Made by a program: the position numbers and the translations under genes. From positions 496,001 through 560,000 of the forward strand of contig NZ_LMPD01000001.1 in NCBI RefSeq assembly GCF_001424305.1: a stretch of DNA of 64,000 nucleotides, written 5' to 3'. Numbering within the stretch: the stretch's first letter is position 1; each line of letters begins with the position of its first letter. The DNA is from Pedobacter sp. Leaf176. Lineage in GTDB: Bacteria; Bacteroidota; Bacteroidia; Sphingobacteriales; Sphingobacteriaceae. Below the pieces are notes generated by a model. The model did no database searches and had not been told where the DNA came from. It saw only the letters and a program-made list of their open reading frames with translations. Below, one piece after another: positions 49,730 to 51,389 of this stretch.

Positions 49730-50206
49730 TTACCCTAATTCAATCTGCCTTTTAATACTTTCTTCCAATGAGATTAATGTTTCTGTACGCTGAATGCCGT
49801 TTACGGCTTGTATCTCCTCATTTAAGACATGACGAAGGTGATTTGTATCCCGGCAGATGATCTTTGCAAACATGCTATAGGCACCTGTAGTATAATGCAG
49901 CTCAACAACTTCTTTTATTTTGCTTAGTTGTGCAACCGCATCCTTATATTGAATTCCTTTTTCAAGATAAATCCCCAGAAACGCACAAATATCGTAACCA
50001 GCTTTTTGGGGGTCAATGATTAGATGCGATCCTTTAATAATGCCCATCTCCTGTAATTTCTTCATCCTGACATGAATTGTACCTCCGGAAACAATCAAAT
50101 CTTTTGCAATTTCCGTATAAGGTTTTGTAGCATCATGCATTAATTGTTTCAAAATATCGATGTCGAGGTTGTCAATTTCTAAATTGGAATTGTCTTTTTT
50201 AAGCAT
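49730..50206 (-). CDS. Lrp/AsnC family transcriptional regulator
   Basis: A 158-residue regulator. The N-terminal HTH (LDIDILKQLMHDATKPYTEIAKDLIVSGGTIHVRMKKLQEMG) is joined to a C-terminal RAM (ligand-binding) domain with the GAYSMFAKIICRDTNHLRHVL strand pattern. Members sense amino acids and form octamers that wrap DNA. It is divergent from the tRNA-like unit starting at 50304 and shares its 150-base promoter region with it. It could act on that unit or on itself, which is an inference. Confidence 0.92.
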   Translation of the reverse strand: MLKKDNSNLEIDNLDIDILKQLMHDATKPYTEIAKDLIVSGGTIHVRMKKLQEMGIIKGSHLIIDPQKAGYDICAFLGIYLEKGIQYKDAVAQLSKIKEVVELHYTTGAYSMFAKIICRDTNHLRHVLNEEIQAVNGIQRTETLISLEESIKRQIELG

Positions 50207-50279: not shown

Positions 50280-50311
50280 TTTGCAAGATATTGTGTGTTC
50301 CTTTACATTTG
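50280..50311 (+). promoter_or_regulatory. Promoter of the tRNA-like unit
   Basis: TTTG at 50280-50283 and TACATTTG at 50304-50311 are 20 bases apart, close to the TTTG-N19-TAnnTTTG consensus, with an exact -7 box. The first tRNA-like gene starts 48 bases downstream. Confidence 0.65.
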
Positions 50312-50359: not shown

Positions 50360-50467
50360 TGTAGGGTGGTGAAACAGGCAGACACACCTCCTTGTCTCGG
50401 TGGTGGAGAATTTGGGAAACCGGCAACGGCTAACTACTCCTTGAAGGTTCGATTCCTTCCCCTACAG
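50360..50467 (+). tRNA. tRNA-like gene 1: type II body with GUC anticodon
   Basis: A 108-base RNA folding as a tRNA. The acceptor TGTAGGG pairs with CCCTACA (50460-50466); the discriminator is G. Then U8, G9; D stem GTG/CAC with loop AAACAGGCAGA; anticodon stem CCTCC/GGTGG with one U-U mismatch; loop TTGTCTC with anticodon GTC (50394-50396). The 39-base variable region has GGAG/CTCC stem (50405-50408, 50437-50440) and an inner CCG-GCAA-CGG hairpin. The T stem GAAGG/CCTTC encloses TTCGATT and abuts the acceptor without extra bases. CCA is not encoded. U37 is very unusual. The D arm resembles leucine tRNAs, but G2-C71, G10, G34, U35, C36, C38 and G73 are aspartyl determinants. It may be a special tRNA, a regulatory mimic or a diverging Leu tRNA. 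Confidence 0.75.
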
Positions 50468-50542
50468 CTGTTTCAGTTTGCAGTAGCCAGTATACAGTTA
50501 GCAATAACTGATAATTGAAAACTGCTTACTGAATACTTAAAA

Positions 50543-50686
50543 TGTTGGGTGGTGAAATTGGCAGACACGCCTCCTTGTCTCGGTGGTGGGGAATCATGGG
50601 ACAAACGCAGTTTATTGGGTTGACCACAATTAATTTTTTGAACTGTAGCTAACTACCCCTTGAAGGTTCGACTCCTTCCCCAACAG
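50543..50686 (+). tRNA. tRNA-like gene 2: type II body with 75-base variable arm
   Basis: A 144-base RNA of the same plan as gene 1. The acceptor TGTTGGG pairs with CCCAACA, discriminator G. D stem GTG/CAC with loop AAATTGGCAGA. The anticodon arm CCTCC-TTGTCTC-GGTGG is identical to gene 1 (anticodon 50577-50579). T loop TTCGACT. The variable region (50587-50661) is 75 bases, closed by GGGG/CCCC (50588-50591, 50656-50659) and containing a CAGTT/AACTG helix. Compared with gene 1, acceptor pair 4 changes from A-U to U-A and the variable stem from A-U to G-C, so pairing is kept. CCA is not encoded. Standard tRNA finders may miss it because of its length. Confidence 0.72.
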
Positions 50687-50716
50687 CATTTTTTATGAAT
50701 AATAAGTTAGTTAATT

Positions 50717-50750
50717 GAGCAATCCCGGATGGGTTGCTCTTTTTCTTTTT
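50717..50750 (+). terminator. Terminator of the tRNA-like unit
   Basis: GAGCAATCCC (50717-50726) pairs with GGGTTGCTC (50731-50739), with one bulged T and a GGAT loop, and is followed by TTTTTCTTTTT. It ends the plus-strand unit 30 bases after tRNA-like gene 2. Confidence 0.85.
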
Positions 50751-50772
50751 CAAGTTTTTCCGGAAAATTCTA

Positions 50773-50804
50773 AAAACAAAAAAGGAGCAAATTTCTTCGC
50801 TCCT
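50773..50804 (-). terminator. frr intrinsic terminator
   Basis: On the minus strand AGGAGC (from 50804) pairs with GCTCCT, with a 10-base loop, and is followed by TTTTTTG. It lies just past the frr stop, back to back with the terminator of the tRNA-like unit. Confidence 0.8.
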
Positions 50805-50825
50805 CAATAATATTCTTAATGTAAT

Positions 50826-51389
50826 TTAAACAGTCATTACATCTTTTTCTTTAGCTTCCGCGTGCTTATCAACTTTAATAATGTAGGCGTCAGTTAATTT
50901 TTGCACTTCGCCTTCGCCGGTTTTGATTTCATCATCAGAAACGCCTTCACCTTTTAGCTTTTGAATTTTAGTGTTAGCATCTTTACGTATGTTACGCACA
51001 GTTATACGTCCACGTTCTGCTTCTTCTTTGACTTTTTTAACCAGATCTCTTCTTCTTTCTTCGGTTAGTGGGGGTACAACCAGACGAATGACGATACCAT
51101 CGTTTTGCGGATTAATGCCAATGTTAGCAACCTGAATTGCTTTTTCAATAGCAGTTAAAAGAGATTTTTCCCAAGGTTGAATAACAATTGTTCTCGCATC
51201 AGGCGTGTTGATACTCGCTACCTGGGATAAAGCCGTAGCCGCTCCATAATAATCTACGAAGATGCCATCCAGCATTCCTGCCGATGCTTTTCCTGCCCTG
51301 ATTTTTGTTAATTCAGACTCACAATGATCGATGGCTCTGTCCATTGCAGCTTGAGCATCCATTAATTGTAATTGTATGAGGTCGTTCAT
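50826..51389 (-). CDS. frr: Ribosome recycling factor
   Basis: A 187-residue RRF that splits post-termination ribosomes with EF-G. The family core is visible: ITKIRAGKASAGMLDGIFVDYYG, IQPWEKSLLTAIEKAI, IRLVVPPLTEERRRDLVKKVKEEAERGRITVRNIRKDANTKI. Length is normal. It lies 38 bases downstream of pyrH, the common pairing, and ends at a terminator. Confidence 0.97.
   Translation of the reverse strand: MNDLIQLQLMDAQAAMDRAIDHCESELTKIRAGKASAGMLDGIFVDYYGAATALSQVASINTPDARTIVIQPWEKSLLTAIEKAIQVANIGINPQNDGIVIRLVVPPLTEERRRDLVKKVKEEAERGRITVRNIRKDANTKIQKLKGEGVSDDEIKTGEGEVQKLTDAYIIKVDKHAEAKEKDVMTV

Follow-up and report, generated by a model that had tools for sequence, protein, structure and literature searches.

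A conserved family of tRNA-like RNAs in Bacteroidota with features predicted for an aspartate carrier amidated to asparagine outside translation

The window analysed here, by which we mean the whole stretch of 64,000 nucleotides from Pedobacter sp. Leaf176, contains two tandem tRNA-like genes that lie head to head with a gene of the Lrp/AsnC family of regulators (Table 1). Both RNAs have an acceptor stem of 7 bp, a D stem of 3 bp and a T stem of 5 bp, with G73 as the discriminator, and share the anticodon arm CCUCC-UUGUCUC-GGUGG, whose stem of five positions has a U-U mismatch in the middle. The variable loop of an elongator tRNA-Asp measures 4-5 nt, and the arms in its place here measure about 39 and 75 nt. 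The original prediction, made from the sequence alone, described two complete tRNA-like genes that combine a long variable arm with the anticodon GUC; its coordinates are exact, both genes score highly with a model of the family (R1), and their relatives covary.

Table 1. Features of the tRNA-like RNA locus, with positions counted from the first letter of the window.
Feature	Positions	Strand	Description	Score or basis
Lrp/AsnC-family regulator gene, AsnC-type	49730..50206	-	158 aa; head to head with the RNA genes	
Bacteroidota-type promoter	50280..50311	+	TTTG 50280-50283; -7 box TACATTTG 50304-50311	
Leader element GTTCTTTAA	50337..50345	+		sequence
tRNA-like RNA 1	50360..50467	+	U1-A72, G73, no encoded CCA	R1 127.7 bits (RNA 1 is among the 37 sequences used to build R1)
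Anticodon GUC, RNA 1	50394..50396	+	loop UUGUCUC 50392-50398	sequence and alignment
Long variable arm, RNA 1	50404..50442	+	about 39 nt	basal stem covaries family-wide
tRNA-like RNA 2	50543..50686	+	U1-A72, G73, no encoded CCA	R1 101.5 bits (RNA 2 is not among the sequences used to build R1); R2 103.8 bits
Anticodon GUC, RNA 2	50577..50579	+	loop 50575-50581	sequence
Very long variable arm, RNA 2	50587..50661	+	about 75 nt; contains GGGUUGACCAC	
Trailer and intrinsic terminator	50687..50744	+	stem 50717-50726 x 50731-50739; T run from 50740	

Standard tools pass over these genes. ARAGORN calls neither of them (its sole call in the window is a tRNA-Thr), Rfam gives no tRNA match (RF00005) between 49300 and 51800 at E<=1, and at gathering scores it gives no match for family members on L065, L086, L152, L140 and L225, so that the family is probably absent from annotations or mislabelled in them. 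A 42-base pattern allowing up to three mismatches matches RNA 1 and RNA 2 and nothing else in their own genome, where a pattern search also finds one ordinary tRNA-Asp and two tRNA-Asn.

The RNAs belong to a widespread family. When 201 genomes of the host's own family were searched at the DNA level, 128 gave matches, many of them short; 65 distinct elements were extracted from the loci found, identical elements being left out both here and in the base counts below, and 37 were aligned to build R1. With membership set at >=62 bits and >=107 nt, R1 identifies members in 65 of 395 genomes of the class, spread over 19 families of Bacteroidia. This is a lower bound: some ordinary tRNAs (76-87 nt) reach about 62 bits, so that R1 does not divide the two groups cleanly, and at least one long element scores only 55 bits. 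A second model (R2), built from 98 matches and run on 296 genomes of the phylum, separates clearly, with long members at >=87 bits in 31 genomes and the next match at 67.6 bits. That match (L264:1339-1414, genome G257) is a 76-nt relative with a short variable loop and the anticodon AUC, which carries U1-A72, U35, C36, U37, C38 and G73; its genome has AsnA and lacks GlnRS. A T-arm/acceptor pattern search for relatives returned at least 120 named stretches, and R1, run on 28 of them, found members in Arcticibacter, Desertivirga, Chitinophaga, Lewinella and Thermoflexibacter as well as in metagenome-assembled genomes labelled Cytophagales, Flavobacteriales, Ignavibacteria and Kapaibacterium (Kapabacteria). 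The homologues are thus not plain Leu or Ser tRNAs, and the family is conserved far beyond the genome in which it was first noticed. The idea that the pair might be diverged Leu genes may still hold as ancestry, the next-best model matches being ordinary tRNAs, mostly of 79-87 nt.

Tandem arrays reach five copies in L033, with a period of 150 bp, and five in L038. Within both arrays (L033:2005-2720 and L038:1984-3601) the RNAs are nearly identical and no AsnC-type gene lies in the available stretch, as if dosage matters.

The cloverleaf is supported by covariation. In an alignment of 94 distinct members, standard pairs fill 99.9% of 2162 pair cells, both sides change in 14 of the 23 pairs, and double changes occupy 210 cells; shuffles give 49.7 such cells, and slid partners no more than 32. 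These figures are favoured by the fitting of this alignment to the model. The first alignment (n=37), made without structure fitting, has 12 double-change cells against 1.6. Folded as single sequences, neither RNA 1 nor RNA 2 has a cloverleaf as its minimum-energy structure, and these structures do not exceed shuffles in stability (z -0.04 and -1.02), so that the fold rests on comparison. The variable arm has a basal stem, and a loose pattern recognises an ANAAA...CUAAC core in 70 of the 110 members; the motif GRUNGACCAC is present in 29 of the 48 members longer than 130 nt, RNA 2 included.

The pattern of base conservation separates charging from decoding. U1-A72, G2-C71, U35, C36 and G73 are invariant in all 110 distinct members, C38 is present in 109 and G34 in 106, the four exceptions to GUC being UUC (twice), CUC and AUC. 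Some loci were found by a pattern that fixes the 3' acceptor; the 83 members that came from other searches, made with models of the same family, show no variation at positions 1, 2, 71, 72 and 73 either. The bacterial Asp identity set comprises G73, G10, G34, U35, C36 and C38, with G2-C71 as a minor element (PMC9976931, available part). The claim that every determinant known for AspRS is present is therefore borne out across the family for G2-C71, G34, U35, C36, C38 and G73, and needs correction for G10, which both window RNAs carry but which is not kept in the 94-member alignment; the U-U mismatch in the anticodon stem, likewise reported for both, is found in 24 of 110 members only. Position 33 is U in 75 members, G in 14, A in 11 and C in 10, and position 37 is U in 98, C in 6 and G in 6 (a purine in 6/110) and never A. 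Ordinary tRNAs read from such genomes have U33 in 57 of 57 cases, and ordinary tRNA-Asp has G1 in 35 of 35. Judged from the alignments, the bases read by AspRS are mostly kept and those needed for decoding are not.

This pattern leaves little room for a tRNA-Asp isoacceptor that works in translation and has an enlarged variable arm. The near-universal GUC, the Asp determinants and the occurrence of members within viral tRNA arrays would suit such a tRNA, but it would have lost U33 in 35 of 110 members, would never have A37 and would carry U1-A72 instead of G1-C72; an ordinary tRNA-Asp was moreover found by pattern in 34 of 36 genomes with the RNA (the pattern does not resolve the other two), and the presence of the RNA follows gatB, as described below, which together make this reading very improbable. 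The long variable arm and the Leu-like D arm also bring to mind a non-decoding type II tRNA charged with Ser or Leu, either diverged from a Leu gene or resembling the allo-tRNAs, whose acceptor/T stems measure 8/4 or 9/3 and whose charging is of the Ser type. The family shares with allo-tRNAs a type II arm and an anticodon at odds with such a shape, but differs in its 7/5 stems and its Asp determinants. G73 would suit SerRS, but LeuRS needs A73, which no member has (G73 in 110/110), and Ser and Leu identity ignore the anticodon, which leaves the conservation of U35, C36 and C38 unexplained (PMC9976931, available part); we give a Ser- or Leu-charged RNA very little credence. Of the options raised in the original prediction, the evidence favours charging with Asp for a use outside translation: the family keeps the Asp determinants but not U33 or a purine at 37, and an ordinary tRNA-Asp coexists.

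The invariant first pair suggests what this use may be. Bacterial GatCAB recognises tRNA-Asn through U1-A72 (PMC4206432, available part), and amidation of tRNA-Asp is prevented by G1-C72 and U20a (PMC9976931, available part). An RNA that unites the Asp determinants with U1-A72 is thus predicted to serve AspRS first and GatCAB next as a substrate. The original prediction had listed U1-A72 as an oddity without linking it to GatCAB, and mentioned neither the AsnC-type neighbour nor the spread beyond Sphingobacteriaceae. A point against a dedicated carrier is that the ordinary tRNA-Asn could itself serve if charged by AspRS, since it begins with U in 14 of the 17 cases read (U1-A72 being judged from the first base). 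It begins with G, and so has G1-C72, in L322 (G397), L332 (G257) and L351 (G383); GatCAB should not accept the tRNA-Asn of these three genomes, in which gatB and the RNA (in G257 the short-arm relative) are present. In G397, which has gatB, AsnRS and GlnRS but neither AsnA nor the AsnB equivalog, the tRNA-like RNA is therefore the only one of the two with the GatCAB pair.

A Glu anticodon (UUC or CUC) with U35-C36 kept is seen at L066:1501-1610, L132:5565-5712, L108:291-454, L098:1937-2043 and L083:1972-2086, and these members could represent a Glu-to-Gln version or drift.

A link to gatB was predicted from U1-A72 beforehand and is borne out by co-occurrence, GatCAB presence being read from gatB alone. 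A panel of 68 genomes was hand-picked before any gatB result and consists of 35 genomes with a member of the family (RNA+), 21 Bacteroidia without one (RNA-) and 12 RNA- genomes of other classes. gatB is present in 35/35, 2/21 and 11/12 of these, respectively (Fisher 1e-12 for the 33 RNA+ Bacteroidia, with kinship ignored). Among the RNA- Bacteroidia, gatB is limited to G257, the genome of the short-arm member, and G219, where GlnRS is missing. Among RNA- genomes from the same families as RNA+ ones, gatB is absent in G016 and G021 (f1) and in G275 and G447 (f36), and within a single genus G384 has both the RNA and gatB and G215 and G258 have neither gatB nor an R1 member. The class sample agrees, with gatB in 296 of 395 genomes and all 65 RNA+ genomes among them (hypergeometric 9e-10, kinship ignored). 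AsnRS (asnS) is over the cut-off in 67 of the 68 panel genomes, including all 35 RNA+, and GlnRS (glnS) in 31 of these 35, so that in these 31 GatCAB is not needed for either tRNA in translation; gatB and glnS occur together in 31 panel Bacteroidia, all of which carry the RNA. Against a carrier stand the 231 of 296 gatB-positive class genomes without an R1 member, and the four panel genomes outside Bacteroidia that combine gatB and GlnRS without the RNA; of such cases in the panel, a missing GlnRS explains only G219.

The distribution of asparagine synthetases is less straightforward. With TIGR01536, a broad model of asparagine synthases, 31 of the 35 RNA+ genomes score over the cut-off, that of Pedobacter sp. 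Leaf176 included, and this counts against the carrier; because the model does not separate RNA+ from RNA- genomes, the AsnB equivalog NF006949 was used next, and is over its cut-off in 0/35 RNA+ and 15/33 RNA- genomes. The AsnB-like protein of the host genome (598 aa) scores 409.5 bits with TIGR01536 and 277.8 bits with the equivalog, against 499 required. We tentatively read the AsnB-like proteins of RNA+ genomes as other amidotransferases, and a working asparagine synthetase among them is the main caveat. AsnA, which counts in the same direction, is found in three RNA+ genomes (G531, G500 and G383; 3/35) and in 4/33 RNA- genomes. The genomes G275, G447 and G261 have no gatB, AsnA or AsnB equivalog, and are possibly asparagine auxotrophs or use another route. 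An earlier survey names Bacteroidetes among the genera with AsnRS and GlnRS but no AsnA or AsnB; it assumed an ordinary tRNA-Asn and left the specificity of AspRS open (PMC4206432, available part).

If tRNA-Asn were the main substrate of AspRS and GatCAB, the tRNA-like RNA might act as their scaffold or regulator, a tRNA mimic that binds both enzymes and tunes the formation of Asn on tRNA-Asn. The conserved bases and the co-occurrence with gatB fit this idea equally well, as does U at position 1 in most tRNA-Asn. The motif RDHG, which we take to be the mark of a non-discriminating AspRS, is absent from all 19 AspRS that a pattern could read among 26 sequences from RNA+ genomes (G257 included, 7 not readable), which argues against it together with the three tRNA-Asn that begin with G. 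In transamidosomes a tRNA helps to hold the complex together (PMC9976931, available part), a precedent counted in favour of a scaffold. On balance we consider this function unlikely, and prefer a dedicated carrier.

The gene arrangement adds a regulatory aspect. The regulator matches Pfam AsnC_trans_reg (7.3e-18) and HTH_24, and its best NCBIfam match is AsnC (NF008384; 179.5 bits, E 3.6e-53), followed by LrpA at 71.4; this score is the best by far yet below the curated cut-off of 227, and the protein is accordingly called AsnC-type and not AsnC proper. An Lrp/AsnC-type gene lies near 84 of 125 loci, a count that leaves out the near-identical loci of the host's own genus (L001-L032) and is not de-duplicated by species. 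Of these genes 83 are head to head with the RNA, at a median of 157 bp, and one is convergent; the other 41 loci, extra copies and viral contigs among them, show no such gene in the available stretch. Escherichia coli has a divergent asnC-asnA pair. The likeness lies in an AsnC-type regulator head to head with a presumed asparagine-making gene, and the difference in the partner, which here is an RNA gene and not an enzyme gene. In 20 loci with asnA or asnB, mostly of RNA- genomes, tblastn found no neighbouring gene of the AsnC type, and this counts against the carrier. The RNA could instead work together with the AsnC-type protein, as a regulatory tRNA mimic through which Asp or the status of AspRS is sensed without amidation, as the head-to-head gene, the structured arm and the tandem arrays of some genomes would allow; with the invariant U1-A72 and the gatB co-occurrence left unaccounted for, we find this highly unlikely and retain the dedicated carrier.

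Flanking transcription signals were counted in 91 regions that leave out loci with short flanks or with a neighbouring element within 260 bp. A Bacteroidota-type promoter, called with a consensus that we assume to be valid for the phylum, occurs upstream in 49 of the 91 (1.4 in shuffles), GTTCTT in the leader of 22 (1.7 in shuffles), and a terminator with a perfect stem follows within 90 nt in 25 (1.4 in shuffles). The leader element GTTCTTTAA resembles what we take to be boxA of rRNA operons.

Taken as a pathway, these elements would work as follows. The AsnC-type regulator, probably sensing asparagine, would control the divergent RNA promoter. AspRS would place Asp on the RNA through G34-U35-C36, C38, G73 and G2-C71, GatCAB would turn this Asp into Asn while it is bound to the RNA, and the Asn would then be released for AsnRS and other uses. 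The frequent loss of U33, the absence of A37 and the large variable arm would bar Asn on an RNA with the anticodon GUC from reaching Asp codons. We consider it quite probable that this conserved tRNA-like family, with its AspRS bases and GatCAB pair, is a dedicated carrier off the ribosome on which Asp is amidated to Asn. The broader proposal, a phylum-wide RNA cofactor outside the genetic code that replaces asparagine synthetase, is governed by an asparagine-type regulator and is carried by phages too, appears to us reasonably likely.

The kind of pathway is known. In Deinococcus and Thermus, and as predicted in Bdellovibrio, asparagine is synthesised on tRNA-Asn by a non-discriminating AspRS and GatCAB (PMC4206432, available part). 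The proposed route is alike in that GatCAB would amidate an aspartyl-RNA recognised through U1-A72 in cells that also have AsnRS and GlnRS, but in Deinococcus and Thermus, as far as the available part of the source goes, the carrier is the decoding tRNA-Asn (GUU), whereas here it would be a separate RNA with an Asp anticodon, a very long variable arm and a frequently lost U33. With such a separate carrier an ordinary, discriminating AspRS would do. A tRNA variant reserved for use outside translation is known from Staphylococcus, where a non-proteinogenic tRNA-Gly serves in the making of cell-wall bridges; it differs in its amino acid, in its ordinary tRNA shape and in the lack of amidation, and is unrelated in sequence. 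A separate RNA dedicated to tRNA-dependent asparagine synthesis appears to be new within the literature searched, no published description of such an RNA having been found among titles and abstract openings, a coverage outside which preprints and most subscription papers fall. If the proposal is true, these bacteria would make an amino acid on a non-decoding RNA reserved for that task; this would explain the supply of asparagine in those Bacteroidota that have AsnRS, GlnRS and GatCAB without AsnA or the AsnB equivalog, and would show how a cell can protect its genetic code from a chimeric Asp-to-Asn carrier.

The family extends to viruses. A pattern run over viral contigs picked out 20 stretches, 15 of which hold members of >=150 nt by R1, and a gene for the terminase large subunit lies near the RNA on L226 and L237. 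Relatives of the L226 terminase occur in 133 phage records, including phages of Flavobacterium, Cellulophaga and Bacteroides. On a contig of 149 kb the RNA stands in an array with tRNA-Asp and two tRNA-Asn. A nucleotide search with two viral-contig members against an annotated phage collection gave no match. Long-arm viral members are located at L225:6179-6352, L226:3288-3454, L231:9683-9843, L235:885-1039, L237:4862-5023 and L239:7143-7311; some viral members lie inside tRNA arrays with tmRNA, tRNA-Asp or tRNA-Asn, and some have extra hairpins in the D loop.

Several smaller features of the transcripts were observed. Between the last RNA copy and the terminator lies a conserved trailer (50687-50716 in the window), which reads approximately TTTAATTTAGGTTTATAATTGGTTAGTTTGAG in related genera (downstream in L036-L052). 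In some elements, though not in all, the GGTTAG of this trailer could pair with the variable arm: pairing with CTAACC of the arm looks compensatory in the host genus, but several combinations mismatch among the 38 elements with a downstream GTTAG, and the pairing was rejected as a general feature. A weak Rfam match to the Bacteroides sRNA BTnc005 at 50719-50859 on the minus strand (20.3 bits, E 0.11, far under the gathering score) is probably due to chance. The sequence GGGUUGACCAC recurs in long variable arms across families and viral contigs, for example in RNA 2 of the window and in L086, L093 and L152. Finally, GGUUGACC is nearly self-complementary and its version in L093, GGUCGACC, fully so, which could allow pairing between two RNAs.
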